From assembly GCA_902599445.1 (NCBI GenBank), contig CACKFK010000011.1:1-50767 (forward strand): a stretch of 50,767 nucleotides of DNA. The letters run 5' to 3'. This document shows positions 22,639-49,143 of the stretch, in pieces. Every line of letters starts with the position of its first letter. Position 1 is the first letter of the stretch. The DNA is from an uncultured Alphaproteobacteria bacterium (GTDB lineage Bacteria; Pseudomonadota; Alphaproteobacteria; Rhodobacterales; Rhodobacteraceae). Both the position numbers and the translations under genes were made by a program. A model generated the notes under the pieces. The model had not been told where the DNA came from. It made no database searches and saw nothing but the letters and a program-made list of their open reading frames with translations.

Positions 22639-23913
22639 TTATAGTTTGAAAGGGATGAAAAGGGCAAGATCAGTCCAAACATACATTATTATGACTGTAA
22701 AAATCATCATTATCAAAAAAGGTAAAACACCCTGTGCAACGTCACCTAACTTACATTTTGCGACCGATTGAATTACATAAAGATTTAAACCGACAGGGGG
22801 AGTTATTAAAGCACATTCGACCATAATGACAATAAATATACCAAACCAAATTGGATCAATTCCCATACTGATTGCAGCAGGAAGCAGAACTGGAACCATT
22901 ATAAGTACCATTGACAAGGTTTCAAAAACAAGTCCCATTGCAACCAATACCATGCAAACAACTGTAATAAAAAATGCCTTGCTATCAATGTACATTTGAA
23001 TAGCCATAGAAATGTCTTGTGGTATTCTGTAGAGAGCAACCGCCTTTCCAAAAATTTTTGCCCCCGCTATAATAATTAGAATTGCTGCCGTAGTGACCAT
23101 GGATTCAAAAACAGCTTTCTTAAAGTCTTTAAATGAAAGGGATCTCATAACAATTACCGTTAATACCAGGGATAACGAAAAGCCAACCGCTGCAGCCTCG
23201 GTTGGCGTGAATACACCACTATATATTCCTCCTAGTATTAGCGCAGCCAAAGAAATAGTTGGAAAAACATTAATTGCACTCTTCCACCGAACAGTCCAAC
23301 TTGCCTTCTCAGTTCTTGTATATCCACCAAAAAACTGAGCATAAATTATCGAAAAACCAATGAACAATAGAATCAGAAATATTCCCGGTCCTATACCTGC
23401 CAAAAATAATGATATGACACTTTCTTCAGTAATAAAGCCATACACAATCATTGGAAGACTTGGCGGAATCAAAATCCCCAAAGTGCCTCCAGCAGCAAGT
23501 AATCCGTAGACAAATTTTCTATTATAGCCTCTTTCTATCATTTCAGGGATTGCTACAACACCGATTGTAGCTGCTGTTGCAACGGAGACACCAGAAATAG
23601 CAGCAAAGATGCCACAGGAAATGATTGTTGCGATCGCAAGACCACCAGGCCAATGACCAACCCAAGCTTGTACAGCTTCATAAAGATTTCTACCGCAACC
23701 ACCATATAAAAGTATGTTACTCATTAACAAGAAAAGTGGAACTGCCAATAAAATGAACCCGTCAAGCGTCGAAAGTATTGCTTGGGGAGCCATAAGGGGA
23801 GAGAACCCTCCCGTTACTAACATTCCTAAACCTAGAGTCCCCAGAGAAAACGCTACTGGTAGACTTGCTAGCAAAAGAGCGAACATAACCAATAATGTAA
23901 TGGTCAACTTCAT
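22639..23913 (-). CDS. TRAP transporter large permease (DctM-like), system 1
   Basis: Inner-membrane protein of 424 residues with 12 or so hydrophobic segments. It starts L-L-V-M-F-A-L-L-L-A-S-L-P-V-A and has the family blocks I-P-P-S-L-P-M-I-V-Y-G and T-P-T-E-A-A-A-V-G. It couples solute uptake to the sodium gradient. Its ATG overlaps the DctQ stop (TAATG). It is the last gene of a P-Q-M operon lying downstream of the sugar-kinase/aldolase operon on the same strand. Confidence 0.9.
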   Translation of the reverse strand: MKLTITLLVMFALLLASLPVAFSLGTLGLGMLVTGGFSPLMAPQAILSTLDGFILLAVPLFLLMSNILLYGGCGRNLYEAVQAWVGHWPGGLAIATIISCGIFAAISGVSVATAATIGVVAIPEMIERGYNRKFVYGLLAAGGTLGILIPPSLPMIVYGFITEESVISLFLAGIGPGIFLILLFIGFSIIYAQFFGGYTRTEKASWTVRWKSAINVFPTISLAALILGGIYSGVFTPTEAAAVGFSLSLVLTVIVMRSLSFKDFKKAVFESMVTTAAILIIIAGAKIFGKAVALYRIPQDISMAIQMYIDSKAFFITVVCMVLVAMGLVFETLSMVLIMVPVLLPAAISMGIDPIWFGIFIVIMVECALITPPVGLNLYVIQSVAKCKLGDVAQGVLPFLIMMIFTVIIMYVWTDLALFIPFKL

Positions 23914-24416
23914 TACGTTTCACTTTTGAAAACTGAATAGCTAACCAATATTTTCCAAGATTCGATAATAGCTTGAATTAGTAGAATAAAAAAGAACACA
24001 GGCACAGAAAGCTCTGCGATCCAAGAAGGAAGGTCAAGTAGGCTACCAGTCGTTCTACCTCTTTCATAAGAATCATAAAAAATTAACCAACCATAAATAG
24101 TTACATAACCGCTAAAAATCATAAGTATAAACAATGTTAATAATGAAAGAAGGTGTTGGATCTTCTTGCCTAACCGCTCAGTGACAGCATTGATTTGAAT
24201 GTGTCTACGATTTTGCAGCATCCATGGCATAGCCAAAAGCGTACCATATATCAAACAAAGCTGACTTAACTCGGCAGCCCATTTAGTGGGAGAAATGAAG
24301 AAATATCTCATCATCACTTCGTAACTAAGCATAATGCCTGATAACACAAATAACCAGGCTGCAAGCCAAGCAAATGCTAGAGACATTTGTTCAAAGTATT
24401 TAATTAACTTCACCAT
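23913..24416 (-). CDS. TRAP transporter small permease (DctQ-like), system 1
   Basis: A 167-residue protein with four hydrophobic segments and the DctQ layout: Y-E-V-M-M-R-Y-F-F after helix 1, W-A-A-E-L-S-Q before helix 2, and R-R-H-I-Q-I-N-A in the loop. It pairs with the adjacent DctM. A hairpin in the 57-base gap upstream separates it from the binding-protein gene. Confidence 0.88.
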   Translation of the reverse strand: MVKLIKYFEQMSLAFAWLAAWLFVLSGIMLSYEVMMRYFFISPTKWAAELSQLCLIYGTLLAMPWMLQNRRHIQINAVTERLGKKIQHLLSLLTLFILMIFSGYVTIYGWLIFYDSYERGRTTGSLLDLPSWIAELSVPVFFFILLIQAIIESWKILVSYSVFKSET

Positions 24417-24438
24417 TTAACCACCAAAGGGTATTGAA

Positions 24439-24467
24439 TAGCTGAGCCTGCTAAACAGACCCAGCTA
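24439..24467 (-). terminator. Hairpin between dctP-like and dctQ-like genes
   Basis: TAGCTG (24439-24444) pairs with CAGCTA (24462-24467), with an inner CTG/CAG pairing. No T tract follows, so it more likely protects or trims the binding-protein mRNA than ends transcription, giving more DctP than permease. Confidence 0.4.
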
Positions 24468-24473
24468 ATTTAA

Positions 24474-25466
24474 CTACAGATTGGAAGCTGCTTTAAGAAG
24501 TTTTTCGCCCAACGATCCAGCCCTTGATTTATAGTTATCATAAACTGATGAAGACGCTTTTTTAAAGGCTTCAATATCGGCTTTGGAAGGTATAACTACA
24601 TTCATGCCATTAGCTTTTGCTATTGCATAGGCTTCAGCTTCAATCTCAGACATCTTATCACGAACTGATTTCTCAGCGATAGCTGCAGATTCAGAAATGA
24701 TTTTTTTCTGATCACTAGATAAACCATTCCACCACTTTGTATTAACCACAACTATAAATTCAATATCAGCATGATTGGTAACTGTGATAGTATCCATGAC
24801 CTCGTATAACTTTCGGGACTTTACGCCCGATACACCCGTCATGCCCACATCAACTGTACCACGCTGATATGCAAGATATTGCTCTGATCCAGAAATAAGA
24901 GTTGGAGCTCCACCGGTTGCTTCAACAAACTGACCAAGAGTTTTACCAAATACACGTACTTTTTTACCCTTCATATCGTCAGGGTTACTAATTGGACTAC
25001 CCTTTGACAGCATGATTGCACCGCCATAAGCTTGCCACCACAAGACAGTAGAACCAGTACCTTCTATGGCTTCATCGATAGGACCTCGAATTGCAGAACC
25101 CTTTGCCACCGCTTTTCGAACTTTTTCCTCACTATCGAACAAAAAAGGTTGGTAAAAAATATCAACAGCTGGAATATCTCCTACATACCTAGTTAGTGAT
25201 GCTACGCCAGATTCAATTGAGCCCGATCCAACTGCGGCGGGGACTTCTTTATCTTTGTACAGTTGTGCGGAGTCATATATTTCAATTTTGATATCACCAT
25301 CAGATTTAGATTCCACCTGTTCCTTAAACAAAAGCAAATTTTGTCCTAAGTGGCTCTTAATTGGCAACTGCAAAGAAATTCGCATGGTTACATCAGCAGC
25401 GAAAGACACATTAGTCAAAAAAGCCGACATAAACCCTACGAGAAAAAGCTTTATTAGTTTGTTCAT
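24474..25466 (-). CDS. TRAP transporter solute-binding protein (DctP-like), system 1
   Basis: Periplasmic receptor of 330 residues. Signal peptide L-F-L-V-G-F-M-S-A-F-L-T-N-V-S-F-A-A, then V-T-M-R-I-S-L-Q. The conserved ligand region is K-K-V-R-V-F-G-K (the Arg that usually binds a carboxylate) followed by G-G-A-P-T and the Y-Q-R-G-T-V-D-V-G block. First gene of the P-Q-M operon. The conserved Arg suits an acidic solute such as a sugar acid or sulfonate, but the ligand is not determined by sequence. Confidence 0.88.
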   Translation of the reverse strand: MNKLIKLFLVGFMSAFLTNVSFAADVTMRISLQLPIKSHLGQNLLLFKEQVESKSDGDIKIEIYDSAQLYKDKEVPAAVGSGSIESGVASLTRYVGDIPAVDIFYQPFLFDSEEKVRKAVAKGSAIRGPIDEAIEGTGSTVLWWQAYGGAIMLSKGSPISNPDDMKGKKVRVFGKTLGQFVEATGGAPTLISGSEQYLAYQRGTVDVGMTGVSGVKSRKLYEVMDTITVTNHADIEFIVVVNTKWWNGLSSDQKKIISESAAIAEKSVRDKMSEIEAEAYAIAKANGMNVVIPSKADIEAFKKASSSVYDNYKSRAGSLGEKLLKAASNL

Positions 25467-26882: not shown

Positions 26883-27806
26883 CTACATTTTGCTCAAATG
26901 TTGATTAACTTTATCCGCTATCATTAAACTCACTTGTTTGTTTGACTCAATTGTAATTCCGGCTATGTGAGGAGTTAAAATTATATTTTCCAAACCATCA
27001 AATTTTTTTGCCGCCTCCTTGTCCAATGGTTCATTAGTAAATACATCTAAGGCGGCTCCTCTTATTCTACCTTTTTCAAGAGCACTCGCTAATGCGTCTT
27101 CATCTATTATTCCTCCCCTAGCCGCATTAATTATAATTGCAGAAGGCTTTAAAAGTTCTATCTTAGTTTTATCGATTAAATTCTTGGTTTCTTTGGTTAA
27201 TGGTATATGAAGACTAATTATATCGGAATATTTCAAAAGCTCATCTAAAGTTAAGTTGTCTGTTCCTTCCCATATTTTGCTGTGAGGTTGTAAATAAGGA
27301 TCATGCGCAACTATTTTCATTCCTATAGAGAGCGCAATCCTTTTAACTTTTTGAGCAATTTCTCCGAATCCAATTAAACCCATAGTCTTACCATTAACTT
27401 CTGAACCAGAACTTTCTTCTCTGGGCCACAAACCAGAAACCATTTTATTTTTTTTAAAAAAGGCTCCCCTCAATAGTAACATCGAGGTGCAAATAACATA
27501 TTCTGCAACACTATTAGAGTTGGCTCCAGTAGCCGGATAAACGGTTATTCTTTTCTCTTCACATCCTTTGATATCAATATTATCTAATCCCACACCTAGT
27601 CGCCCAACACATGCTAATAAAGGTGCCTTGTCCAATAAATTACGTGTTATCAGTGTTTTATTTCTAACAATAATTGCTTTGGCATCCACAATTATCTTAG
27701 AAATTGCAGATGGATTTTCAAATAATGTACTATCATAGATAACATTATATCTCTTCTCTAACTTTTTAATTGCAGTTTCATCCATAAACTCTGTAATTAA
27801 AATCAT
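26883..27806 (-). CDS. D-isomer-specific 2-hydroxyacid dehydrogenase, possibly sulfolactate dehydrogenase-like
   Basis: A 307-residue NAD(P)-dependent dehydrogenase. Catalytic Arg230 (N-A-A-R-G-G), Glu259 (F-T-N-E-P) and His280 (T-P-H-I-A-G) are present, with the Rossmann loop G-L-I-G-F-G-E-I at 143-150. It would interconvert a 2-hydroxyacid and a 2-oxoacid. The N-terminal I-T-E-F-M-D and R-L-G-V-G-L-D-N-I-D blocks recall SlcC-type (S)-sulfolactate dehydrogenases and phosphoglycerate dehydrogenase relatives (from memory). It is the last gene of the kinase-aldolase-isomerase operon, ten bases after the isomerase, so its substrate probably derives from the same sugar. Confidence 0.8.
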   Translation of the reverse strand: MILITEFMDETAIKKLEKRYNVIYDSTLFENPSAISKIIVDAKAIIVRNKTLITRNLLDKAPLLACVGRLGVGLDNIDIKGCEEKRITVYPATGANSNSVAEYVICTSMLLLRGAFFKKNKMVSGLWPREESSGSEVNGKTMGLIGFGEIAQKVKRIALSIGMKIVAHDPYLQPHSKIWEGTDNLTLDELLKYSDIISLHIPLTKETKNLIDKTKIELLKPSAIIINAARGGIIDEDALASALEKGRIRGAALDVFTNEPLDKEAAKKFDGLENIILTPHIAGITIESNKQVSLMIADKVNQHLSKM

Positions 27807-27816
27807 TTTTCTCTTC

Positions 27817-29202
27817 TTAGATATACAAAGTTGGTAATTTCATTTCAGTCGCTACCTCTGATAGTAATTGAACATGATCTCCATAAGCAATGGCTACATG
27901 GTGTTCCAGGCCAGCCGAAATAATGTCATCAAGAACTTGCTTTGCTCCTCTATCAAACATTACAACTCCAGATGTTCCAGTATATGGGAGTCCTCTTTTC
28001 ACCATTTTTCCTTTGGAAATTACCATCTTTTGCTCTCCAAGAGATTGGGAGATTCGCATTATGGTTACAACACCTTCCTTAAGTGGAAACTCAAATAATA
28101 ATGGCATCTTCCTATTAGTGTGGATAGTAGCTTGGGGCTTAAAATTAACTTCACACATTGAAATAGGTGCTTGTCCGCAATGCCAAAAAACTCCAGTATT
28201 ATCATCAACATCTATATCGACTATGTCCGTAAGAAAAACTGGTTTTTGTGAAACTTCTTGAAGTATGAGTTGACTTACAGCGCCATATACGTCAGCTTCG
28301 CACGCACAAGGAACCTTATTCTCAGTCATAATAGAAGCTGGACCACAGATAGCTCCACCATATTCTGTAAACATCTCAGGCCAACATCTTAGGGCAAAAG
28401 CATGGTAGTTAGCCCGATCTCTCAACTGAAAAAGATATTCCTTTAATTTGATGGACATTTCAAGTTGCCCTTGATCAACTTTATCCAGTGATGACAATTG
28501 ATTGTGAAGTGTTTTAAAAGTCGGTTCTATCCCTTCTTTTTTTATTTTTCTTGCTTCTTTTAAAAAACTGTTAAGTTCTATTTCATCAACTTTAATTCCA
28601 CAAAGTTCACTAAGTTTTTTTTGATTAAATTTGCACGTATCAAAGCCTTTGGGATGATCACCAATTTTTGCTATCTTAAATTCAGAAATCTTTTGCTTTA
28701 TCAATTTCGCTTTTTTGGACGTTACCTTATTAAATTCTCCTGCTCGCAATCTTTTTTGGACACTTTGCTGGTCAATTACATTATTAAAGTTCGCAGGACT
28801 GATTGTTTCTGGGTCTTCGTAAATCCAAGAAAAATAAAAATCGTTTAAGCCCAGAGAATGTGACGCTAGATTTAAACCACAGAAAGCATTCAGCCTCAAT
28901 CTTCCCCCAAGGCGAGGTTCTGGAAAAGCCCAAATTCCTATCGGCTGATTAAAATCATTTGCTACTTTTAACACCGTAGACGAGTCTGTAAAAGTCACTT
29001 GTAAAATTAAAATAAAATCAAAATTTTCTTGCTTTAGACTATCAATTTCACTTGAAGCATCAAAATCATCTAATAGCAATTTGCCATTACCAATAATAAT
29101 GTGTTCGGTTAACTCCAAAAATTTTTTACACTGATTTAGTTTTTTGTTTGCGTAATTTATATCAAATGTAGAACGAGCCAGAGCTAGTAATCCGATTTTC
29201 AT
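27817..29202 (-). CDS. L-fucose/L-arabinose isomerase-like sugar isomerase
   Basis: A 461-residue cytoplasmic protein with the fold order of the FucI/AraA group. A glycine-rich sugar-binding loop (P-R-L-G-G-R-L) lies near residue 100. The metal-binding Glu302 and Asp304 are in C-E-A-D-V-Y-G-A, and W-H-C-G-Q-A-P follows at 340-346. It would convert an aldose to a ketose with Mn or Mg. Its ATG lies two bases after the aldolase stop. The set isomerase, kinase, aldolase predicts ketose formation before phosphorylation. I recall an isomerase of this superfamily serving sulfoquinovose in a variant sulfoglycolysis, which would suit the kinase next door; other 6-substituted sugars are alternatives. 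Confidence 0.75.
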   Translation of the reverse strand: MKIGLLALARSTFDINYANKKLNQCKKFLELTEHIIIGNGKLLLDDFDASSEIDSLKQENFDFILILQVTFTDSSTVLKVANDFNQPIGIWAFPEPRLGGRLRLNAFCGLNLASHSLGLNDFYFSWIYEDPETISPANFNNVIDQQSVQKRLRAGEFNKVTSKKAKLIKQKISEFKIAKIGDHPKGFDTCKFNQKKLSELCGIKVDEIELNSFLKEARKIKKEGIEPTFKTLHNQLSSLDKVDQGQLEMSIKLKEYLFQLRDRANYHAFALRCWPEMFTEYGGAICGPASIMTENKVPCACEADVYGAVSQLILQEVSQKPVFLTDIVDIDVDDNTGVFWHCGQAPISMCEVNFKPQATIHTNRKMPLLFEFPLKEGVVTIMRISQSLGEQKMVISKGKMVKRGLPYTGTSGVVMFDRGAKQVLDDIISAGLEHHVAIAYGDHVQLLSEVATEMKLPTLYI

Positions 29203-29204
29203 AA

Positions 29205-30233
29205 CTAACCATTCTCCATATAAAGATGTCTAAACTTAGCTGTCTTATATGGGAAAAGATTACCTCCTTTACTAAAGCATTCATGCTTATACCACGGCAT
29301 AGCCTGTTGTTCTGCCAACGAAACTATCTCACTAAGGTAACTTGCTGAAGAACCTCTTAAAACCGTATTTATTTTTTCCCAGTCAGGATAATTTGCCAAA
29401 GCCTCTAACCAAATTGCTCGACCCGCGAGAAATCCTGAACAACCTGCCTGAAACGCGAGAGATAAAACGTTCTTAAACTCAGCCTTGCTTACACCTGCCG
29501 ATAGCATCACCCAGGGTCTAGCAGCTATTCTACCCATTTCTTTGAACGTATCTAGAGAATCTCTATCGATTAACTCAGCATTGACTGGGCTTTCTAACTT
29601 AAAAATATCCACTCGATACTTTTCTTTTGCAAACTCCTCAATCGACCTGAAGACATGGTCAGTTTTTTTATTTTTCATTTCTTTGTATTCAGTTGTTTGA
29701 GATTCATTTGTTAATTTGGGCAATGGATAAACCAGTAACTCAAGTAGAAACAAAATATCATATTTCGCACAGTCTTCTCCTACCCTCTGTATATAATCTT
29801 TTTGTTGCTTCAAAACTTCCTTGTCTGCATCAGGTCGATACCAAGCTAGAACCTTGACGGCATCGGCTCCCATTCTTTTGATTTTAGATACACTCCAATC
29901 ATCAATATTTTTTGAAATTCTACCATTTTTTGTTTCAATAAAGGCGGAGTCCTCCAACGTAACCACCAAGCCTTTTCTGGGATCAAATATATCCATGGAA
30001 AAAGGAAGAGCGAAATGTGGGTCTAAGAGTAATGCGGAGCTATATTCTTGAAGACTATCAATTAAGGCTCTTTTAAATTTAGCGACTTCCTGCCATGGCG
30101 CTTCTGATACATTTAAATGATCCCTAATTGGATTTTTGATTGGGGGTCTCTGATCCACTGCTGTCATGAGAAAAATACCATTGCATCCAGAGAGTCTCTT
30201 CATCCCCATAAGTTTACCTGGGCTCAACTGCAT
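29205..30233 (-). CDS. Class I sugar-phosphate aldolase, LacD/YihT-like
   Basis: A 342-residue TIM-barrel aldolase. It has T-A-V-D-Q-R-P-P near the start, K-V-L-A-W-Y-R-P in the middle (Lys127), the Schiff-base Lys212 in I-F-K-L-E-S-P, P-W-V-M-L-S-A-G-V and A-G-R-A-I-W (Arg272). This is the tagatose-bisphosphate aldolase (LacD) and sulfofructose-phosphate aldolase (YihT) family. It would split a ketose 1-phosphate into dihydroxyacetone phosphate and a three-carbon aldehyde. Its start overlaps the kinase gene by ten bases. The length is nearer to LacD than to YihT (about 290). Confidence 0.82.
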   Translation of the reverse strand: MQLSPGKLMGMKRLSGCNGIFLMTAVDQRPPIKNPIRDHLNVSEAPWQEVAKFKRALIDSLQEYSSALLLDPHFALPFSMDIFDPRKGLVVTLEDSAFIETKNGRISKNIDDWSVSKIKRMGADAVKVLAWYRPDADKEVLKQQKDYIQRVGEDCAKYDILFLLELLVYPLPKLTNESQTTEYKEMKNKKTDHVFRSIEEFAKEKYRVDIFKLESPVNAELIDRDSLDTFKEMGRIAARPWVMLSAGVSKAEFKNVLSLAFQAGCSGFLAGRAIWLEALANYPDWEKINTVLRGSSASYLSEIVSLAEQQAMPWYKHECFSKGGNLFPYKTAKFRHLYMENG

Positions 30234-31117
30234 ATTCTTTGCTCCACAATAAAATCAGAAACTTGCTCTCGGGTTGGAAAACTATCCCTACCTCCAAAGA
30301 TAGTACATTTTAAGCTTGCAACAGAATTTGCAAATTCTACAGCTGCAAATTCATCACTCCCCTCTGAAAGGCTGAGAGCAAATGCCCCGTGCCAAACATC
30401 ACCTGCTCCTAAAGTATCTTTAACTATTACTTTTGGGGGCGGCACATTAATTACTTCATCTTCCTTAAAAAGGAACACACCCTTTTGTCCACTGGTTACA
30501 CAAAGCCAGGAATCAGTCAGGCTTCTAACTTTTTGTAGTCCTGTCTGCAAATTGTTTTCCTTGGTGAAGCTTTTCAACCCAAACTCGGAAAAAGCTACAT
30601 GTGAAGCTAAGTTTAAGGCTTCTTCAGTAACTTTATCTTCTGCGTCCAATACACCTGGTCGATTGAAATGTCTAGCAATCTTCAGCGTTTCAATGGCTCC
30701 GCCAATCCACCTGGTATCTGCAAGGTATACATCATGCTCTTCTATTTTGTTAATCCATGAAGCATTTTCAGGGAGTTTTGGATCTCTATAGTTTACTATT
30801 TGTCTTTCTCCAAACTTATCGACATAAACTGATGAAAAAGAGGAACGGTAGCCTTCACATTCCTTAATATGATTAATTTTTATACCCTCATTTAAGAACT
30901 GGTTCTTTATAATACCTCCTATCTCGTCTTTTCCCAATCTTGAAACAAGTGTCACTTCGCCTCCTAATCTATTAATTGCCACGGCCGCATTTGCTGCCAC
31001 TCCACCGCCAGAGATAGAAACGTCTTTAGCTCTAAATTTTTCTGCTTCCATAGGCATAGCTTCAAGCTGAAAAATAAAATCAACTACTGAGACTCCTGTT
31101 ACCATTATTTTAGTCAT
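30224..31117 (-). CDS. PfkB-family sugar kinase, YihV (sulfofructose kinase)-like
   Basis: A 297-residue ribokinase-type kinase. It has the N-terminal G-G-G-V-A-A-N-A-A-V-A block (37-47) and the ATP/catalytic motif D-T-L-G-A-G-D (Asp240). Compared with E. coli YihV from memory, similarity runs the full length (G-E-R-x-I-x-N-Y, A-D-x-R-W, A-F-S-E-x-G-L, A-A/S-L-K-C-T). The residues I recall as sulfonate contacts there, Lys27, Asn109 and Arg138, are matched by Lys27, Asn109 and Arg136. It would phosphorylate a ketose at C1 ahead of the aldolase. ATG immediately follows the TAA of the cytochrome gene; the C-terminus overlaps the aldolase start. A carboxylated or plain hexose substrate remains possible. 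Confidence 0.8.
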   Translation of the reverse strand: MTKIMVTGVSVVDFIFQLEAMPMEAEKFRAKDVSISGGGVAANAAVAINRLGGEVTLVSRLGKDEIGGIIKNQFLNEGIKINHIKECEGYRSSFSSVYVDKFGERQIVNYRDPKLPENASWINKIEEHDVYLADTRWIGGAIETLKIARHFNRPGVLDAEDKVTEEALNLASHVAFSEFGLKSFTKENNLQTGLQKVRSLTDSWLCVTSGQKGVFLFKEDEVINVPPPKVIVKDTLGAGDVWHGAFALSLSEGSDEFAAVEFANSVASLKCTIFGGRDSFPTREQVSDFIVEQRICS

Positions 31118-32518
31118 TTAATCTACCGGGAACCCACTCGGAACTGCACTTGGCCTACCTAAAGGTCTATTGTTCTTACTCTTTCCAGTTAATGCATAAA
31201 GAAAACCAATTATTTCATCAATTTCTTTTTCAGTAATTTCGGTTGGCTCAATGTCAATTCTAGATAATAGCCTTTCTGTTTCTCTTTTGTCAGACAATAC
31301 TACGAAATCTATATCCTCTAGCCATGGTGCCTCCGGAAGTTTAGCCATTGAAGGGTCCCACTTTTGATACATTTCCAACGGTTCAAAATGATGTTTAACT
31401 ATTCCTTCTAAACTTGGATAAGCACCATTGTGTCCATAAGGAGAGGTAAGAGTAACGTTTCTTAAAGAGGGTGTTTTAAAACGATATATATCTTCGATTC
31501 TATCACTTTCACCCATTCTCCCAACGTCTCGAGTGAAAGGATCCATTCTGCGTGTCCTTCCCGGACCAAATTGCGGGATTGCTAGAGCATAAAATTTTTG
31601 ATCTGTAAGTAAATTACCTGAATGGCATGTAGAACATTTTGCCTTACCATAAAATAAGTCCAATCCTCTCTTTTGATGTGGCGTGAGTGCATACTGATCC
31701 CCATTAAGGTAATCGTCAAACGGAGAGTCAAATGATGTCCATTCCTTTACTATAAAAGCAGCGATTGCATTGGCAATATGAACAATTTCTATGTCCATCG
31801 AATGCTCTATATCATCAAAGGTATCCACAAAAAGACTTTCATATTCTGGAATACCACGAATTCTATTTTCGATCACGGGCCAAACCGCATCTATCCTGCG
31901 ACTATCCTTACCAATTTTGGAAACTAACCCTATTATTTCATTTTCACCAAAATTACCTGCCATTTCAAATTGTCTTGTCATAGGAAAGAGTGCCTGAACA
32001 GACAAAATGTTATCTAACCCTGCAGGCAACCACTCCTCCGCTGGCGTATTAAAACCATTTCCAAAAATGTTTGATTCACTTATCCTTCCATCATGCATAA
32101 GTGTGTGGATCTCTTTTGCTCCTAAGTTCCAAAGGCCAGGAGCATTTCGTGGAATTCTCTTTTTTATCTTATCCGCCCCCTTTCCCGATGATCTGTTACT
32201 CCCTACTCCAAACCCACCTTCCCCAATTCCAAGTGATAATCCATCGCCGCCGGCAAAATCATGATGATGACAAGTACCGCAAGATATATTATGGTTTCCA
32301 GACAAAATTTTGTCATAAAAAAGTAGCCTGCCCAAAGTAGCTTTTTTTGGATCCGAGTAATGAAAACTGTTGTTCGTGAGTGGATTAGGTATCTTTTCAG
32401 CGTTACATTTATTAGATAAAAGTAACAATAAAACTAAGACAAATAAGGACACAAGATGCTTAAATACGTAATTATCCTTATAATACTGCCAATAATGGCC
32501 GCTGGTGAGATCGAGCAT
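31118..32518 (-). CDS. MauG-like di-haem cytochrome c peroxidase
   Basis: Exported protein of about 466 residues with two haem-binding motifs, C-G-T-C-H (followed by H-H-D-F-A-G-G-D) and C-S-T-C-H-S-G-N about 230 residues later, as in bacterial cytochrome c peroxidases and MauG. The C-terminal F-K-T-P-S-L-R-N-V block with G-H-N-G is also typical. The signal peptide (L-F-V-L-V-L-L-L-L-L) lies near the start. The exact start is unsure: ATG 32518 overlaps the head of the divergent Sel1 gene by 63 bases; GTG 32452 would avoid overlap. Its stop abuts the kinase ATG with no gap, so it is the first gene of the sugar operon. It may oxidise the sugar or a cofactor in the periplasm. Confidence 0.8.
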   Translation of the reverse strand: MLDLTSGHYWQYYKDNYVFKHLVSLFVLVLLLLLSNKCNAEKIPNPLTNNSFHYSDPKKATLGRLLFYDKILSGNHNISCGTCHHHDFAGGDGLSLGIGEGGFGVGSNRSSGKGADKIKKRIPRNAPGLWNLGAKEIHTLMHDGRISESNIFGNGFNTPAEEWLPAGLDNILSVQALFPMTRQFEMAGNFGENEIIGLVSKIGKDSRRIDAVWPVIENRIRGIPEYESLFVDTFDDIEHSMDIEIVHIANAIAAFIVKEWTSFDSPFDDYLNGDQYALTPHQKRGLDLFYGKAKCSTCHSGNLLTDQKFYALAIPQFGPGRTRRMDPFTRDVGRMGESDRIEDIYRFKTPSLRNVTLTSPYGHNGAYPSLEGIVKHHFEPLEMYQKWDPSMAKLPEAPWLEDIDFVVLSDKRETERLLSRIDIEPTEITEKEIDEIIGFLYALTGKSKNNRPLGRPSAVPSGFPVD

Positions 32519-32926
32519 GCTCGTGATCTTATGGAGGAAGGAAAATTTGAAAAAGCTATGCAAGAATTGCTTCCTGCCGCCAGATCTGGGAATGCAGATG
32601 CAGAGGAACTTATTGGGATAATGTATGCTATGGGCCTTGGAGTTAAACGAGACGATATCAGAGCCTTCGACTGGTATCTTAGAGCCTCCATGAAGGGACA
32701 CCCAGGAGCTCAATCTGGTGTGGGATGGTACTATGAAATTGGGCGGGGCTTGCCTGCTCCAGATCTTATCAGAGCTTACACCTGGTACGTTCTGTCTGCT
32801 ATCGGTGGTGATCCGGACGCAGCTATTTCTCAGGAAGAAGTTGTAAAAAAAATGACCCAAGAAGAGATTGAAAAAGCCCATGTTTTAATTAATGACTACA
32901 AAGTTTGGATTTATCCATTTAGATGA
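32456..32926 (+). CDS. Secreted Sel1-repeat protein
   Basis: A 156-residue protein: signal peptide (Y-V-I-I-L-I-I-L-P-I-M-A-A), then TPR-like Sel1 repeats. One repeat is A-E-E-L-I-G-I-M-Y-A-M-G-L-G-V, with D-D-I-R-A-F-D-W-Y-L-R-A-S next; a second has Y-Y-E-I-G-R-G and R-A-Y-T-W-Y-V-L-S-A. It is a scaffold-type protein in the periplasm. It is head-to-head with the MauG-like gene, whose start region it overlaps or nearly touches. The two may assemble together or share control. Confidence 0.75.
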   Translation: MLKYVIILIILPIMAAGEIEHARDLMEEGKFEKAMQELLPAARSGNADAEELIGIMYAMGLGVKRDDIRAFDWYLRASMKGHPGAQSGVGWYYEIGRGLPAPDLIRAYTWYVLSAIGGDPDAAISQEEVVKKMTQEEIEKAHVLINDYKVWIYPFR

Positions 32927-32974: not shown

Positions 32975-34036
32975 TCAGTCTAAGTCTTTACCGTAAGCAT
33001 CGGCCATTCTTGCCTCTGCATCGGCTACAGCAGATGTTAGTGCATCAAAGACTTCAGGACCTCCCTTAACATTTGCCTTGAACCAATCATATACTGGCGA
33101 AGCAGCTGTCTTAAACCTTGCTTTTTGATCTGGTGAAGGCACATAAAGATTGCCACCACCAGCTACAAAATCTTCATAAGCTTGGATTGACTTTCTTTTT
33201 GGTGAAGCAAAAGTAGCTTGCTGAAGTGCATAAAAACCGTCGGTAATTACTTTTCTCAGATCCTTTGGCATTGATTGATATTTAGCATTATTCATCCACC
33301 AAAGGGCCCCCATATATGCGTGACCATCTAATGTAACATACTGAAGACCTGCGTCAGGAAACTTCATATTCATGATGTCAGTAATACCGTTCTTAGAGCC
33401 CTCAACTACACCCGTCTGAAACGAGGTAAACAACTCTGGCCACGGTATTGGGGTTGGAGAAGCACCTAAGGCTTTCACCAAAACCTGAGGTAGATCAGCA
33501 ACAACTGTTCTAATTTTCAGTCCACTCATGTCTGAAGGTTCTGCAATTTGTCTTTTGGTATTAGCAAAATTTCGCCACCCACCAGTATTACCAATGGTCA
33601 TGAGACGGATAGTATTTCCCGAATCAGCAAGTGCCATTTTTCTTACAGTTCGCACGAAATCACTTTGCATAACATCCTCAGCAATTCTGTCATCGGACAT
33701 TAAATACGGTAAATCCAGAACCTGTACATAAGGAAAAACTCCTGCTGCACCGCCAGAGGTGGAAATATAGATATCAATACTACCATCACTTATTCCTTGC
33801 AAGCATTCTGCGCCCTTAGAACACAACTGAGTTCCCACAAAAAGTTCTACAGAAATGGCACCATTTGAGGCTGATTCCACATAGTTTTTAAATACTATTG
33901 ATCCATCATAGTCTTCATCTTGGTCATTAGAATTCATAGTCATTCTCAGGTTATAATCAGCTGAAAAAGCTGGTATACATACCCCAAAAACCAAAGCAAA
34001 AGCACAAAAAGATCTTATCAATTTTCTAGTAAACAA
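32975..34036 (-). CDS. TRAP transporter solute-binding protein (DctP-like), system 2
   Basis: Periplasmic receptor of about 353 residues. Signal peptide S-F-C-A-F-A-L-V-F-G-V-C-I-P-A-F-S-A. Ligand region L-K-I-R-T-V-V-A-D (conserved Arg), then L-G-A-S-P-T-P-I and F-Q-T-G-V-V-E-G-S. Two Cys (L-C-S, E-C-L) near residue 70-80 may form a disulfide. TTG 34036 is chosen as start because AAGGGAG lies just upstream; TTG 34075 is a longer option. It is the last gene of a Q-M-P operon. Confidence 0.85.
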   Translation of the reverse strand: MFTRKLIRSFCAFALVFGVCIPAFSADYNLRMTMNSNDQDEDYDGSIVFKNYVESASNGAISVELFVGTQLCSKGAECLQGISDGSIDIYISTSGGAAGVFPYVQVLDLPYLMSDDRIAEDVMQSDFVRTVRKMALADSGNTIRLMTIGNTGGWRNFANTKRQIAEPSDMSGLKIRTVVADLPQVLVKALGASPTPIPWPELFTSFQTGVVEGSKNGITDIMNMKFPDAGLQYVTLDGHAYMGALWWMNNAKYQSMPKDLRKVITDGFYALQQATFASPKRKSIQAYEDFVAGGGNLYVPSPDQKARFKTAASPVYDWFKANVKGGPEVFDALTSAVADAEARMADAYGKDLD

Positions 34037-34133
34037 ATCTCTCTCCCTTAAAATAAGTTTATTTTTTTCAAACAAGTCTTAATCAAAACACATTTGAACA
34101 ATATCAAAGAGATAGAGTGTTGCACATTTTTTC

Positions 34134-35423
34134 TCATTTGGCAAAGCCAGTCAGCAGCGGAATGGTCATAGACAACGCAGGAAAATATGTAATTAAAAAT
34201 ATCACGACAATTTCAACTGCCAGAAAAGGTAAAATAGCCTTAGAAATCGTTTCAACTCTTTCTCCTGAAACTGATGAAGCAACAAACAAAACAAGACCCA
34301 TTGGTGGTGTGGCAAGACCCACTGTAAGATTTACCGACATAATGATCGCAAAATGTACTGGATGGATCCCCAAGTCTGTAAAAACAGGACCAAGTATAGG
34401 ACCCAAAATGATAATGGCGGGACCCGCATCCAGAAACATTCCTACAATAAATAGCAATATATTTATTAAGAATAGTAGAATGTATGGGTTATTACTCAGG
34501 CCTAAAACAAAATCCGCTAAATACTCAGGAGCATGAGACAAGCTTACGACAGTTTTAAATGCCATAGCGGCGCCTACCAAAAGTAGCACGACAGAAGAAA
34601 CCATTGCAGCTTTTGTGAAAACAATTGGAATATCGCGCCACTGAAGACTTTTCATCACAAACAAGCTTATAAAAAGGGCATATGCAGCTGCCACAGCAGA
34701 AGCCTCGGTAGGAGTGAAGACTCCTCCCAAGATTCCTCCCAAAATAATGACTGGAGTCATTAGAGGAAAAAATGCTTTCAAAGAAGCCTGACCTTTTTTC
34801 TTCCAACTAGATCTAGGAGTAGCAATTGGAAAATCATAGCGGTTAGCCATTAGTTTAACCATGACCATTAAGCCAACTCCCACAAGTATCCCAGGGACAA
34901 TCCCTGCTAAAAATAATGCAGCTACACTTTCTCCCATGACGTATGCATAGATGATCATTATGCCTGATGGCGGAATAATCGGACCAATGACTGAGCTTGC
35001 AGCCGTGATAGCTGCAGCAAATTTTTTAGTGTAACCCTGTTTTTCCATTGCTGGAATTAACATAGAGCCAATCGCAGATGTGTCTGCGACGGCTGAACCG
35101 GAGAGACCAGCAAATAATATTGATGACAAAATATTAACATGGGCCAACCCACCTCGAAAATGACCCATCATGGCTTGGCTAAATTCAACTAACCTAAAGG
35201 TTATACCACCCCGATTCATTAACTCCCCTGCAAGCATAAAGAAGGGAATTGCCATCAATGGAAAACTATCAATACCATTATATATATTACGGTACAGCAT
35301 GGCAGCGTCTTGACCTTGTCCATTTAGCCATAGTAAAATTCCAGGGGCAGCAAGAAGACTAAAAAAGACTGGCATCCCTATTAAAAGAAAAATCAAAAAT
35401 AAGGGTAGGAACCAAACTAGCAT
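34134..35423 (-). CDS. TRAP transporter large permease (DctM-like), system 2
   Basis: A 429-residue polytopic membrane protein. Family blocks: F-P-L-M-A-I-P-F-F-M-L-A-G near residue 55, G-P-I-I-P-P-S-G-I-M-I-I-Y-A, and F-T-P-T-E-A-S-A-V-A. It begins three bases after the DctQ stop and is followed, 58 bases on, by the binding protein. Gene order Q-M-P differs from system 1 (P-Q-M), so the two are not a recent duplication. Confidence 0.9.
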   Translation of the reverse strand: MLVWFLPLFLIFLLIGMPVFFSLLAAPGILLWLNGQGQDAAMLYRNIYNGIDSFPLMAIPFFMLAGELMNRGGITFRLVEFSQAMMGHFRGGLAHVNILSSILFAGLSGSAVADTSAIGSMLIPAMEKQGYTKKFAAAITAASSVIGPIIPPSGIMIIYAYVMGESVAALFLAGIVPGILVGVGLMVMVKLMANRYDFPIATPRSSWKKKGQASLKAFFPLMTPVIILGGILGGVFTPTEASAVAAAYALFISLFVMKSLQWRDIPIVFTKAAMVSSVVLLLVGAAMAFKTVVSLSHAPEYLADFVLGLSNNPYILLFLINILLFIVGMFLDAGPAIIILGPILGPVFTDLGIHPVHFAIIMSVNLTVGLATPPMGLVLFVASSVSGERVETISKAILPFLAVEIVVIFLITYFPALSMTIPLLTGFAK

Positions 35424-35426
35424 TTT

Positions 35427-36077
35427 CTATCCCTCTAAACGTGCTTGGTCAGGATCAGCAGGTAATTTAGTTTGATCATTACAAATCAACAAAATATTTC
35501 TCATAATTAATTCACAATTGACTAAAATTAATAAAAGGATGCCTACAGGTAATGACATATACATCCATGCCAATTTTATTGCTTCTGGTTTACCTCCAAT
35601 TAAATTAAAAGGGATCTTGATTGACGAGGACTGAAATATCCAGCCAACCTTGACGTGCTGAAGTCCGAGTTTAAACCCAATCAACAAAATGAATAGCGAA
35701 AGAGATAACAATACCAATGTTAAAAAGTTACCTGCCATTTTGGGTAATGCATTAGATAGCATACCGATAGAGACAAAACCGCCCCAACGATAAGCGGATG
35801 GAGCAATTAGCCCTGTCATCCATAGCATCAAGAATCTAGCAACTTCATCAGGCCAAGGTAAAGCTGCATTCAATATGTACCGAAAAAATACCTGGAGTAA
35901 GATTACCAACACCATTAAGCATATGGCGATCCACGCAATTTGCCTACCAATCCTCAAAAGAAATGAGTTAACGTGTGTTAATATCGTGAATGTCGTGAAA
36001 AGTAAGGTAACAATTATCTCCAATAGAAGTTTTAACCAAAATTTTAAGATCTTTGGGAAATTATGTAAAGTCTGCAT
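35427..36077 (-). CDS. TRAP transporter small permease (DctQ-like), system 2
   Basis: A 216-residue membrane protein. The DctQ core is clear: Q-V-F-F-R-Y-I-L-N-A-A-L-P-W-P-D-E-V-A-R, then R-W-G-G-F-V-S-I. An extra N-terminal hydrophobic segment (about residues 15-35) precedes the usual four. First gene of the Q-M-P operon. Its promoter must lie just upstream, where a decayed MarR-like gene on the other strand begins at 36100. Confidence 0.85.
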   Translation of the reverse strand: MQTLHNFPKILKFWLKLLLEIIVTLLFTTFTILTHVNSFLLRIGRQIAWIAICLMVLVILLQVFFRYILNAALPWPDEVARFLMLWMTGLIAPSAYRWGGFVSIGMLSNALPKMAGNFLTLVLLSLSLFILLIGFKLGLQHVKVGWIFQSSSIKIPFNLIGGKPEAIKLAWMYMSLPVGILLLILVNCELIMRNILLICNDQTKLPADPDQARLEG

Positions 36078-41232: not shown

Positions 41233-42336
41233 TTATTTATTTGCGCTAATATAGCGGGTCCCTTCCTCTGTAAACAAATGCTCCTTACCTTTTTCCAGTT
41301 GAAAAAACACCTCTTGACCTTTCTCAATTAATGGGTTTCCAGGAATCTTCACTAAAATGTTTTGGCTCAGGTGACCTCCGACTATCTGTGCATAAACCAA
41401 CGCATATTCACCAAGTGACTCAACTAATGATATCTTTGCCCTTATAGAATTATCAGGTTTTTTTGCGAGCACTAAATTTTCAGGTCGAACTCCCAAATTG
41501 AATTTTTTGTTCATATCTTTATTTTGTATATTGTAATTCAAAGCCAGTCTGATTTCCTCTGTAACCTTAGCCTCGCTATCTTTCCCAGTTTTGGAAATGC
41601 TAACTGGAATTATGTTCATTGCAGGCGAGCCAATGAACTTTGCGACAAACAAATTATTTGGCCTCTCGTATAATTCCAAAGGAGACCCTATTTGTTCAAT
41701 TTGGCCTTCCGATAAAACTACAATCTTAGTAGCCAAAGTCATTGCTTCTACTTGATCATGTGTAACATAAACCATTGTGGCGTCAGGGATTGAATCGTGC
41801 AATTTTGCAATTTCAATTCGAGTCGCTACCCTTAAAGCAGCATCTAGATTAGACAAAGGTTCATCAAACAAAAAAACCTTTGGATTTCGAGTAATAGCTC
41901 TACCGATTGCAACCCGTTGTCTTTGACCTCCTGACAACTGTTTAGGTTTCCTATTTAGGAGATCCTCAATCTGTAATATCCTGGCAACATCGTTTACCCT
42001 TGTTTTGATTTCTGACTTCGTTTTTTTTTCTAGTTTTAACCCAAAAGCCATATTATTAAAAACAGTCATGTGAGGGTACAGGGCGTAAGACTGAAAAACC
42101 ATAGCAATTCCCCGATCTTTCGGAGGAAGATTATTGACCACGTTCCCAGCGATTTTAATTTGTCCTGAATCAATCTTTTCTAAACCAGCTACCATTCTAA
42201 GCAAGGTTGATTTTCCGCAGCCACTCGGGCCAACAATCACTGTAAAAGACCGACTCTCAATAGTTAATGACATGTCTCTAATTACCTGAGATCGGCCAAA
42301 AAACTTGTTCAAATGATTAATCTCTATCTCTGCCAC
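41233..42336 (-). CDS. aglK: Sugar ABC transporter ATP-binding protein (AglK/MalK-like)
   Basis: A 367-residue ATPase. Walker A G-P-S-G-C-G-K-S-T, signature L-S-G-G-Q-R-Q-R, Walker B V-F-L-F-D-E-P-L-S-N-L-D and H-loop V-T-H-D-Q-V-E-A are present; the last 130 residues are the MalK-type regulatory (TOBE) domain. It is the last gene of the aglE-F-G-GH4-K operon, 27 bases after the GH4 gene. Its first 42 codons are duplicated at 49017-49143. Symbol by context and family, not by ortholog test. Confidence 0.82.
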   Translation of the reverse strand: MAEIEINHLNKFFGRSQVIRDMSLTIESRSFTVIVGPSGCGKSTLLRMVAGLEKIDSGQIKIAGNVVNNLPPKDRGIAMVFQSYALYPHMTVFNNMAFGLKLEKKTKSEIKTRVNDVARILQIEDLLNRKPKQLSGGQRQRVAIGRAITRNPKVFLFDEPLSNLDAALRVATRIEIAKLHDSIPDATMVYVTHDQVEAMTLATKIVVLSEGQIEQIGSPLELYERPNNLFVAKFIGSPAMNIIPVSISKTGKDSEAKVTEEIRLALNYNIQNKDMNKKFNLGVRPENLVLAKKPDNSIRAKISLVESLGEYALVYAQIVGGHLSQNILVKIPGNPLIEKGQEVFFQLEKGKEHLFTEEGTRYISANK

Positions 42337-43547
42337 AATTTAAATTCCATTTAATATAAAAATTTAAGCCAAATACGATAGATACTCTTCCTGCATCATC
42401 AACATATTATCTAAAAGCTTCTTAGCCTCTTTGGCATCATCTACTACTGGGTCGGCAAGTAATGCCAGATAGGCTTTATGCTTAGACTGTTCCAGTACTG
42501 CCTCCGTCGTTAATTGAATCACTCCAGCCTGCAAATTCAATAAGCTTCCAAAAGACTTAGGATAGTTTTTTAAATGAACGCCCTCAATCCCCTTATTATT
42601 TATAATAGCAGGGACCTCTACCACGATATCACTAGGAAGACATTCTATGAAGCTCTTATTAGGGATATTTACAGAGTCTTCTCTTAAATTCTCATCGCCA
42701 ATAACTGCCTCAGCGATAGGAACAAATCTTTCATGAAAATCCTTGTTATCCATGTTGAAGAATGACCCATATATTTTATCATTATCAAAAAACGATAGAC
42801 ACTTCTTCTTGTAGCTCTCATAAAAATGCAAAATTCCTCTGTGATCTGCTACACTGTAAGCCCATTGAATATATTCCCCTAGATGGCTATCTGTTGTAAT
42901 TGGCAAATAATTGTAATCCTTAAATAGCCTAAAAAATACACCCCGTTCGGCTCCAGGTTCTGATCTAAAACCTTCATGATCATTAACTAGATCAAAAAAG
43001 TAATTCTCAAAATTTTTCCTGATCGCTGGATAACCATCAGCTCCTGAGTCCTTATATTTGGCTTCTAATAAAATACTGAAGTGATTCAGACCTCCTGCAG
43101 AGAATTCAATATTTGAGATGTCAGTTTGCATAAGTTCTGGCAACTGACGAGGCATCGATTTGATTTCATGGCATAAACCGATAAATTTTAGATCCGGGTA
43201 TTGAGTGGTAACTGAATGGCAAATTCGTTGCATCGGATTGGAATAATTGAATACAAATGCATCTGGACAGATAGCCTGAATATCCCTACAGATCTCCAAA
43301 ATAGGAGGAATTATTCTTAGAGAATGGAATAAACCTCCTGGCCCACCATTTTCGCCATATACCTGCCTTATCCCATACTGAAGAGGCAACTTCCAGTCCT
43401 GATCCCAAAGCTGAAATCTATCACCAACCTCAATTGAGATAAGGCAAAAATTGGCACCTTTCAAAGCTTCAGATCGGGAAGTTGTGGCCTGTAATACAAC
43501 TTTCTTTCCCAATTCTTCTTTATATTTTTTTGCAATTTTGTAGGTTT
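42210..43547. repeat. 1338-bp direct repeat, copy 1
   Basis: Bases 42210-43547 recur at 49017-50354, a constant offset of 6807, with no difference seen in the parts compared and with identical encoded protein. It covers the first 42 codons of the aglK-like gene and codons from about 45 to the end of the GH4 gene. Confidence 0.95.
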
Positions 43548-43680
43548 TTTCTAATGATTCTGGGTTAATGTCATGTAAAACGATGGTAGAGTTCTGGAAA
43601 TATTTAGATTTGAAAATATCACTAACCACACCTAGCCCAAAAACTGTACTACCTGCACCAATTAAAACTATTCGAGACAT
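42364..43680 (-). CDS. GH4-family glycosidase (alpha-glucosidase/galactosidase type)
   Basis: A 438-residue NAD- and metal-dependent glycosidase. The N-terminal I-G-A-G-S-T-V-F-G is the NAD loop. N-Y-S-N-P-M-Q, G-L-C-H-E (the metal Cys/His) and G-G-L-N-H-F are GH4 marks. GH4 acts by oxidation at C3 and elimination, on alpha-glucosides, alpha-galactosides or glucuronides. The CHE triplet, as I recall, favours alpha-glucosidases. ATG 43680 starts five bases after the AglG-like stop; the longer frame to 43800 would read through the permease gene. Most of the gene is duplicated at 49171-50354. Confidence 0.85.
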   Translation of the reverse strand: MSRIVLIGAGSTVFGLGVVSDIFKSKYFQNSTIVLHDINPESLEKTYKIAKKYKEELGKKVVLQATTSRSEALKGANFCLISIEVGDRFQLWDQDWKLPLQYGIRQVYGENGGPGGLFHSLRIIPPILEICRDIQAICPDAFVFNYSNPMQRICHSVTTQYPDLKFIGLCHEIKSMPRQLPELMQTDISNIEFSAGGLNHFSILLEAKYKDSGADGYPAIRKNFENYFFDLVNDHEGFRSEPGAERGVFFRLFKDYNYLPITTDSHLGEYIQWAYSVADHRGILHFYESYKKKCLSFFDNDKIYGSFFNMDNKDFHERFVPIAEAVIGDENLREDSVNIPNKSFIECLPSDIVVEVPAIINNKGIEGVHLKNYPKSFGSLLNLQAGVIQLTTEAVLEQSKHKAYLALLADPVVDDAKEAKKLLDNMLMMQEEYLSYLA

Positions 43681-43685
43681 ATCTG

Positions 43686-45808: not shown

Positions 45809-45831
45809 TGAAATTATCTATAATAAATAAA

Positions 45832-45860
45832 AAAGGCGAACAAGGTAATTGTTCGCCTTT
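45832..45860 (-). terminator. Attenuator hairpin between aglE-like and aglF-like genes
   Basis: AAAGGCGAAC (45832-45841) and GTTCGCCTTT (45851-45860) form a perfect ten-pair stem with a nine-base loop. Read on the minus strand it is followed by a T-rich run, the classic intrinsic terminator form. Partial read-through would feed the permease genes. Confidence 0.8.
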
Positions 45861-45887
45861 AGAGTTAGCATTATTAAAAAGCTAGCA

Positions 45888-47207: not shown

Positions 47208-47488
47208 AATTCCCCCCTTCCCTGTGTGGCATGAACTGTTTAAATTATCATGTGTAAGTTACACTCACATTTTTTCAACCTTTTTATTTAAGGTGATAAA
47301 CAGTACTATGTTCTTGATAGGAGTTAAAGTATCTTTAACCCCACCACGGTCTTAGGAGCATTACTGTTAAGAAATAGGCATATTTTAAGAAAAATGATGG
47401 TATTTTAGGCAGAAAAAAAATGGAATTAGTTTGCTAAAGGATAGCTTTCAAGCAAATTTATCTAAAACCTTATAATAGACGAGACAAA
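47208..47488. promoter_or_regulatory. Divergent promoter region of aglE-like and GH1 genes
   Basis: 281 bases between the agl operon (minus) and the beta-glucosidase gene (plus). A T-rich run and a GTTAAAGTATCTTTAAC near-palindrome around 47323-47339 could be an operator. No LacI-type agl regulator gene is present within the window. Confidence 0.45.
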
Positions 47489-48823: not shown

Positions 48824-49016
48824 AAATAATTGCACGAGGCTATACCGCCCAGATTGCTCAAATAATATTGCTTTCCTAAAAGATATTAAACTTAAATTAT
48901 AAAAAAGATTATTTAATCAAATAAATCAAATTGGTGCTCTCTTATCTAAAAGTTTTTTTTCCATCATATCTGAATTAGGCTTTAAATCATTTACATGCTA
49001 TTAATTTATTTATTTA

Positions 49017-49143
49017 ATTTTCCGCAGCCACTCGGGCCAACAATCACTGTAAAAGACCGACTCTCAATAGTTAATGACATGTCTCTAATTACCTGAGATC
49101 GGCCAAAAAACTTGTTCAAATGATTAATCTCTATCTCTGCCAC
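49017..49143 (-). pseudogene. Truncated duplicate: first 42 codons of the aglK-like gene
   Basis: Starts at ATG 49143 and is cut off at the duplication edge inside the Walker A region. It cannot make a working ATPase. Confidence 0.85.

Follow-up and report, generated by a model that had tools for sequence, protein, structure and literature searches.

A probable sulfoquinovose uptake and sulfoglycolysis operon with a hybrid enzyme set in marine Alphaproteobacteria

An operon of an uncultured ocean bacterium of the Rhodobacteraceae (contig CACKFK010000011.1) most likely imports and degrades sulfoquinovose, a sulfur-containing sugar found in the membranes of algae. This sugar is described in an extract of a 2026 review as being among the most abundant organosulfur compounds (PMC12890257). 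The window, i.e. the whole stretch of DNA analyzed, is 50,767 nt long with a G+C content of 37% and is part of a draft genome of 1.70 Mb that is 60% complete. Five minus-strand open reading frames encode a MauG-like di-haem cytochrome, a kinase, a class I aldolase, an isomerase, and a 2-hydroxyacid dehydrogenase. Together with an antisense Sel1 gene and an upstream tripartite ATP-independent periplasmic (TRAP) importer they form a conserved unit that extends to position 36077. It is held to be highly probable that this unit is an operon by which marine Alphaproteobacteria take up sulfoquinovose and degrade it by sulfoglycolysis. Its enzymes most likely form a hybrid set unlike the textbook versions of the pathway, accompanied by an accessory MauG/Sel1 pair.

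Gene order and conservation in relatives

The five open reading frames, at positions 26883 to ~32518, are tightly packed, as an earlier note made from the sequence alone had described. Their coordinates give 0 bases between the MauG and kinase genes, an overlap of 10 bases between kinase and aldolase, a gap of 2 between aldolase and isomerase, and a gap of 10 between isomerase and dehydrogenase. The gene families named in that note are also upheld by domain, family, and structure-database matches, e.g. the Pfam families PfkB (PF00294) for the kinase and DeoC/LacD (PF01791) for the aldolase.

A genome scan with the isomerase alignment was used to find relatives, and the best 80 of 197 were counted. 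These 80 loci are mostly from marine Alphaproteobacteria, and 55 of them have at least 19 kb. The kinase is present in 69, the aldolase in 71, and the dehydrogenase in 51, and each is on the strand of the isomerase in every locus that holds it. Among 198 genomes of the family, about one per genus, the isomerase is found in 18 and the aldolase in 17, with both in 16 (Fisher p ~2e-20). The constant strand and this co-occurrence argue that the operon is not a chance assembly.

Other genes found in the 80 loci encode a GH188-like protein (69), an aldose epimerase (37), a GabD-like aldehyde dehydrogenase (31), ComD (15), ComE (15), SuyA-like (10), SuyB-like (9) and ComC-like (8) proteins, DeoR (35), and GH31 (2); MauG is present in 54 and the TRAP binding protein in 62. 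The fullest order, displayed by L053, L064, L083, and others, is DeoR, TRAP, Sel1 (antisense), MauG, kinase, aldolase, isomerase, GH188, epimerase, aldehyde dehydrogenase, 2-hydroxyacid dehydrogenase, ComD, and ComE. Aliiruegeria, Tropicimonas, Shimia, and Hoeflea have cultured strains with the operon, which is thus directly testable.

A sulfoquinovosidase gene, GH188-like or GH31-like, is found in 71 of the 80 loci. The top three matches of a Gfo/Idh-type protein of L017 are the SqgA structures 8qc3 and 8qc2 together with 8zn9, all at 3.7e-111 or better, and a fourth lies at 8.9e-24; the GH188-like protein of L011 matches the same three structures at 2.3e-90 or better. The motif residues of GH188, described in an extract of PMC10755693, are well kept: EKCCH in 69/69 sequences, the sulfonate loop R-x-P-F-L-x-K in 65/69, and EYRYM in 64/69. 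The SqgA-like sequence and Arg/Lys sulfonate loop that suggest GH188 membership are seen in relatives only. Two loci that lack GH188 show a YihQ-like GH31 gene directly after the isomerase. A GH188-like gene (44–48%) is carried by 7 of 11 relatives of the same genus, G005 among them without the isomerase. Xsc is over its cut-off in genus relatives G003, G004, and G005 and also in family members G012 and G018.

Zymomonas plasmid pZZM402 (L135, L136) carries an isomerase (39%), a GH188-like gene (46%), an epimerase, a class II aldolase, a GabD-like gene, and a kinase 60% identical to YihV, under generic gene names. By its sequences this set looks like a hybrid sulfoquinovose cluster. Plasmids of Sinorhizobium and Rhizobium (L138, L151) show a YihV-like kinase and a LacD/8tnf-like aldolase but no isomerase match, and are possibly sulfosugar loci of a different kind.

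The TRAP-Sel1-MauG module

The MauG-like protein shows a CCP_MauG domain (Pfam), with TIGR03981 below cut-off, and its two CxxCH motifs keep their Cys and His in at least 97% of 55 MauG rows. The label Sel1 is a reading of the sequence, NCBIfam giving only MerG/AlgK matches below cut-off. Of the 156 positions of this protein, 67 are kept in 97% or more of 55 rows. The gene is present in 58 of the 80 loci and runs antisense to the isomerase in 56 of these.

Sel1 is found in 52 of the 198 family genomes: 16 of these are among the 18 that have the isomerase, and the other 36 lack it. Twelve Sel1 loci with no isomerase nearby were chosen by hand from the 52 genomes, not at random; 11 come from genomes without the isomerase, and the other, from G169, has a GH188-TRAP-Sel1-MauG set on a different contig from its isomerase cassette. 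TRAP genes adjoin the Sel1/MauG pair in nine of the 12, and none are found within the 18 kb taken in L172, L177, and L183. Upstream of TRAP, seven of the 12 display a SmoC-like luciferase-like monooxygenase (LLM-type) and a SmoB-like aldo/keto reductase, and a GH188-like gene is close by; it is edge-cut in three, of which L173 keeps only a short piece. An eighth locus has a SmoB-like reductase cut at the edge. For the L178 monooxygenase the top matches are 7olf and 7oh2, both at 8.4e-205 or better; the remaining alkanesulfonate monooxygenases start at 4.4e-56. We take 7oh2 and 7olf to be SmoC; the PDB names are alkanesulfonate monooxygenase and methanesulfonate sulfonatase, and a paper search gave no confirmation. 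No match to SmoC or SmoB appears in the window or in any of the 80 loci with the isomerase, and the operon is not of the sulfoquinovose monooxygenase (sulfo-SMO) type.

The window DctP is 74–78% identical to the DctP of the seven SmoC/SmoB-like loci and 68–80% identical to that of 21 isomerase loci outside the genus. In a DctP tree with few well-supported branches the two kinds of cassette interleave, with five changes, at least two of them forced by well-supported branches; 47–52 of 500 shuffles are as low. Since one importer is common to two unlike cassettes, both appear to handle one substrate, sulfoquinovose. This sharing of the module, with a binding protein unsorted by cassette, is the strongest pointer to sulfoquinovose as the probable substrate. 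MauG and Sel1 follow the transporter and are not tied to one catabolic cassette.

Enzymes and proposed pathway

Among solved structures the kinase gives its best match to the sulfofructose kinase 7ag6 (9.6e-52), followed by 2rbc (3.9e-41) and by ribokinases from 5.4e-22. It is 37% identical to E. coli YihV and 22% identical to LacC. The kinase tree has 43 rows, which come from the loci (20 of 67 rows), the window, and 22 reference sequences, and was made by a quick search with long branches among the outgroups. In it the window kinase and YihV stand apart from LacC, FruK, RbsK, KdgK, PsuK, YdjH, and FrlD with a support of 99. Nine of the 67 locus rows ran past a stop and were trimmed there. 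The kinase is of the YihV type, as first proposed; kinases of other likely function share its clade. Lys27 and Arg136, presumably sulfonate-binding positions in YihV, were considered as proof of sulfonate binding and rejected, the same residues being present in all 12 further kinases compared. A second kinase, 41–43% identical, is found in 8 of 14 genomes searched. In this genome a YihV-like paralogue (L121, G000:C7) lies beside two dihydrodipicolinate synthase (DHDPS)-family genes, a TRAP set, and a GH4/ATP-binding cassette (ABC) set, perhaps a keto-deoxy acid pathway. Because of these DHDPS-family and TRAP neighbors, the second kinase, considered as a stand-in for kinase-less genomes, may act on a different substrate.

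The isomerase was initially labeled L-fucose-isomerase-like. The label is borne out by a Fucose_iso_C domain (Pfam) and by the fold, and NCBIfam adds, as the sole match at 0.01, the sulfoquinovose isomerase SftI (NF048012, 8e-85, 285 bits against a cut-off of 700). No solved sequence relatives are found at 0.001. The AlphaFold model (mean predicted local distance difference test, pLDDT, 92.5) shows the arabinose/fucose-isomerase fold at template modeling (TM) scores of 0.52–0.59, with L-arabinose isomerase at 2.5e-20 and TM 0.57 and L-fucose isomerase at TM 0.53; the structure models were built from 29 and 26 alignment rows. With YihS, BLAST aligns no more than 6 residues, a chance match. SqvD is said to be of the arabinose/fucose-isomerase kind in an extract of PMC9594981. 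The enzyme is not YihS but may be of the SqvD/SftI type, and a role on sulfoquinovose is proposed.

The aldolase matches 8tnf at 4.7e-83, LacD at 2.6e-39, and YihT at 6.3e-19 (phmmer). Compared by its PDB title, 8tnf is a sulfohexulose-1-phosphate aldolase (Paracoccus strain Merri) and is the nearest solved structure by sequence and by fold; with its Schiff-base Lys the aldolase appears to be 8tnf-like. It had been called LacD/YihT-like. The first half of that name stands, the sequence lying on the LacD side of a tree of 21 of 71 locus rows and 10 others (the window's own among the 10), but it does not group with YihT, to which it shows 26% identity (BLAST, 2e-22). All 72 aldolase rows keep Lys212, which is the Schiff-base Lys by alignment, Glu165, Asp27-Gln28-Arg29, Ser245, Gly271-Arg272, and Arg133. 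The latter is at the barrel rim, directly past a barrel strand in the predicted model, at a position that is Arg in YihT and 8tnf and Asp in LacD. Arg133 is a candidate sulfonate anchor.

The nearest solved relatives of the dehydrogenase are phosphoglycerate dehydrogenases (PGDH). It is found in 15/15 loci with ComE and 8/9 with a SuyB-like gene, 23 of 24 together. The suggestion that it acts on sulfolactate is supported by this linkage and by context, and an (S)-sulfolactate dehydrogenase (SlcC-like) is proposed from context and family. ComE and SuyB-like genes are never present in one locus (15 versus 9 of the 80). L017 has ComE over the NCBIfam cut-off and ComD just under. The SuyAB/ComC-like region of G012 shows no second copy of the dehydrogenase and so gives no SlcC yardstick.

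In the proposed pathway TRAP DctQMP would import sulfoquinovose or a sulfoquinovose glycoside, from which the GH188 or GH31 sulfoquinovosidase of relatives would free sulfoquinovose. The isomerase would convert sulfoquinovose to sulfofructose, the kinase would phosphorylate this to sulfofructose-1-phosphate, and the aldolase would yield dihydroxyacetone phosphate and (S)-sulfolactaldehyde. The aldehyde dehydrogenase seen in relatives would then form (S)-sulfolactate, and the 2-hydroxyacid dehydrogenase sulfopyruvate. The end route in relatives would be either through ComDE to sulfoacetaldehyde, for Xsc, or through ComC and SuyAB to pyruvate and sulfite. A variant of Embden-Meyerhof-like sulfoglycolysis, as originally suggested, is favored by the evidence, with a make-up that differs from the first guess.

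Table 1. Features of the operon region in the window
Feature	Positions	Strand	Evidence
D-isomer-specific 2-hydroxyacid dehydrogenase, proposed (S)-sulfolactate dehydrogenase (SlcC-like)	26883..27806	-	Pfam 2-Hacid_dh and context
Sulfoquinovose isomerase, SqvD/SftI (fucose/arabinose-isomerase) type, proposed	27817..29202	-	NF048012, Fucose_iso_C, model fold
Class I aldolase, proposed sulfofructose-1-phosphate (sulfohexulose-1-phosphate) aldolase, LacD-like not YihT-like	29205..30233	-	phmmer 8tnf, Lys212, Arg133
PfkB-family kinase, proposed sulfofructose kinase (YihV-like)	30224..31117	-	7ag6 match, tree
MauG-like di-haem cytochrome, N-terminal hydrophobic segment, probably periplasmic	31118..32518	-	CCP_MauG, CxxCH motifs
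Small Sel1-repeat-type protein, head-to-head with MauG, overlapping	32456..32926	+	conserved MauG partner
TRAP solute-binding protein DctP, proposed sulfoquinovose receptor; start codon uncertain	32975..34075	-	PF03480
TRAP large permease DctM	34134..35423	-	adjoins DctP in relatives too
TRAP small permease DctQ	35427..36077	-	adjoins DctM in relatives too

The MauG open reading frame is open upstream to an ATG at 32881; the start at 32518 is the choice of the earlier note and overlaps the plus-strand Sel1 gene. Promoter and terminator scans gave matches no commoner than in shuffles. A second, unrelated TRAP transporter (22639–25466) is situated directly downstream of the operon, and neither it nor a LysE gene has a counterpart in the eight operon regions compared, beyond cross-matches to the upstream TRAP. 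An ABC sugar importer, two GH4-family glycosidases, and one GH1 glycosidase at 41233–50424 form a separate sugar-use locus.

Alternative readings and known systems

Several observations weigh against a sulfoquinovose operon. The isomerase score is far under the SftI model cut-off, the split of the aldolase from LacD within the LacD side has a support of 55 only, and the Lys27/Arg136 pair recurs in six genus paralogues of the kinase, one beside DHDPS-family genes. SuyA and SuyB are our names, NCBIfam giving only a galactarate dehydratase match below cut-off, and the ComC-like proteins match L-sulfolactate dehydrogenase (NF040650) below cut-off. The kinase is missing in 11 of the 80 loci (one truncated), including five close genus relatives; L044 to L048, of the genus, show MauG-aldolase-isomerase-dehydrogenase without it, with threonine-synthase-like and GH2 genes downstream of the dehydrogenase. 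The aldolase is missing in nine loci. L076, L080, L091, L096, L097, and L112, from metagenome-assembled genomes of Silicimonas/Boseongicola, carry kinase, isomerase, aldehyde dehydrogenase, and 2-hydroxyacid dehydrogenase without it; in L080 the stretch ahead of the isomerase reads like a shifted remnant. A tblastn search of the window at 1e-5 gives no match for YihS, GH188, GH31, epimerase, aldehyde dehydrogenase, ComDE, SuyAB, or DeoR. The absence of a YihS-type isomerase, sulfoquinovosidase, and sulfolactaldehyde dehydrogenase that had been pointed out thus holds for the window, but a sulfoquinovosidase and an aldehyde dehydrogenase are present in many relatives. The host genome, at 60% completeness, has no clear GH188 (best 1.6e-14), aldehyde dehydrogenase (nearest 42%), or SuyB (34%), and no ComE or Xsc over cut-off; the host presumably fills the absent steps.

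Another 6-modified hexose, which the earlier note allowed as the substrate, is compatible with the sequence. LacD-type aldolases are loosely stereospecific, and a sugar such as sulfofucose could be degraded via sulfotagatose and sulfotagatose-1-phosphate. Strain Merri, the source of 8tnf, has a sulfofucose cluster with PF00294 and PF01791 genes proposed for sulfotagatose, and 8tnf may be the product of that cluster, but the PF00294/PF01791 proteins are not significantly raised on sulfofucose according to an extract of PMC12421959. The sulfoquinovosidase genes and the transporter common to the SmoC/SmoB-like loci point to sulfoquinovose, and a different 6-sulfo-hexose appears improbable. Catabolism of a non-sulfonated sugar, e.g. 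of the tagatose or fucose/arabinose type, is given even less credence. It would agree with the aldolase passing the cut-off of the tagatose 1,6-diphosphate aldolase subfamily (NF009498), with the fucose-isomerase C-terminal domain, and with the kinase paralogue that displays the same motif beside DHDPS-family genes. However, the kinase is distant from LacC, Arg133 replaces the Asp of LacD, and GH188, ComDE, and SuyAB-like genes are found in the same loci. Tagatose and fucose catabolism were rejected on the kinase tree, Arg133, and the operon partners. Grouping of kinase and aldolase with enzymes of non-sulfonated sugars had been named beforehand as what would refute sulfoglycolysis; the aldolase does so in form, by its place on the LacD side, and the kinase does not, being in the YihV clade. 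The placement of the aldolase is tempered by the title of its nearest solved structure and by an Arg133 that is as in YihT and unlike LacD.

The sulfoquinovose reading is compatible with MauG and Sel1 being unrelated neighbors kept by synteny, which is given somewhat less than an even chance. The 36 of 52 Sel1-bearing family genomes that lack the isomerase, the 3 of 12 Sel1 loci with no TRAP genes within 18 kb, and the 26 of 80 isomerase loci (some truncated) in which MauG is not seen are in agreement with this, but the pair keeps its position between TRAP genes and cassette with two unlike cassettes and in many genera. A functional link is a doubtful proposal made by analogy with MauG and MbnH, which modify partner proteins. 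TRAP-Sel1-MauG might be a dedicated sulfoquinovose acquisition module behind which SmoC/SmoB or hybrid Embden-Meyerhof-Parnas (EMP) cassettes are exchanged, with MauG oxidatively modifying the conserved Trp/Tyr-rich Sel1 and so maturing a periplasmic part. No link between sulfoquinovose and MauG is seen by title among the open-licence literature matches listed, where three papers contain both terms and mention sulfoquinovose a single time each.

The operon itself is not described among the literature matches listed, and earlier notice is possible. A 2026 survey treats Roseobacter bacteria as sulfo-SMO users, and its BLASTp comparison with reference enzymes set limits at 30% identity and 1e-50. 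The aldolase (26%, 2e-22 to YihT) would fail these limits if it was YihT that served as reference, and so a carbon-carbon-cleaving sulfoquinovose route may be undercounted in ocean genomes, including those of a small-genome lineage known from single cells. In several relatives the route is linked at one locus to the formation of sulfoacetaldehyde or sulfite.

The operon shares with E. coli sulfo-EMP (YihS, YihV, YihT, YihU) a YihV-type kinase and the proposed intermediates sulfofructose, sulfofructose-1-phosphate, and sulfolactaldehyde. It differs in that neither the isomerase nor the aldolase is orthologous to its E. coli counterpart (YihS, YihT), the proposed end is sulfopyruvate rather than 2,3-dihydroxypropane-1-sulfonate (DHPS), and the importer is TRAP rather than YihO. 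With sulfo-EMP2 (SqvD, SqiK, SqiA) it may have in common an isomerase of the SqvD/fucose-isomerase kind, whereas the kinase is PfkB and not PF00365 (SqiK), and the aldolase is class I LacD-like and not class II PF01116 (SqiA); a SqiA-like gene is present in 1 of the 80 loci and none in the window. It is also distinct from the LacC/LacD tagatose pathway in its kinase, which is apart from LacC; the aldolase is LacD-like, but nearer to 8tnf and with Arg133. Hybrids of sulfo-EMP and sulfo-EMP2 are published and are said, in extracts of PMC9594981 and PMC12890257, to span Proteobacteria and Actinobacteria; the table of the latter lists sulfo-EMP in gamma-Proteobacteria and Actinobacteria, and its text mentions hybrids across Proteobacteria.

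By description the operon also resembles the actinobacterial GH188-Tyr clusters for which new pathways were suggested in an extract of Backlund and Higgins 2024 (PMC11465081). These have a fucose isomerase, a sulfofructose (SF) kinase, a sulfofructose phosphate (SFP) aldolase (in one of two clusters), a PGDH-like dehydrogenase, and a sulfolactate sulfo-lyase. They use ABC transporters, whereas the operon reported here has TRAP-Sel1-MauG, shows a ComDE alternative in relatives, and is found in marine Alphaproteobacteria. According to an extract of PMC10755693, GH188 occurs both in sulfo-SMO clusters of marine Roseobacter bacteria and alongside sulfo-EMP genes. The Roseobacter clusters share GH188 and, in seven loci, the TRAP-Sel1-MauG module, but their cassette (SmoC/SmoB) cleaves the C-S bond first. 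Strain Merri supplies in 8tnf the closest solved relative of the aldolase, but its sulfofucose route is of the Entner-Doudoroff type according to the extract of PMC12421959, unlike the route proposed here.

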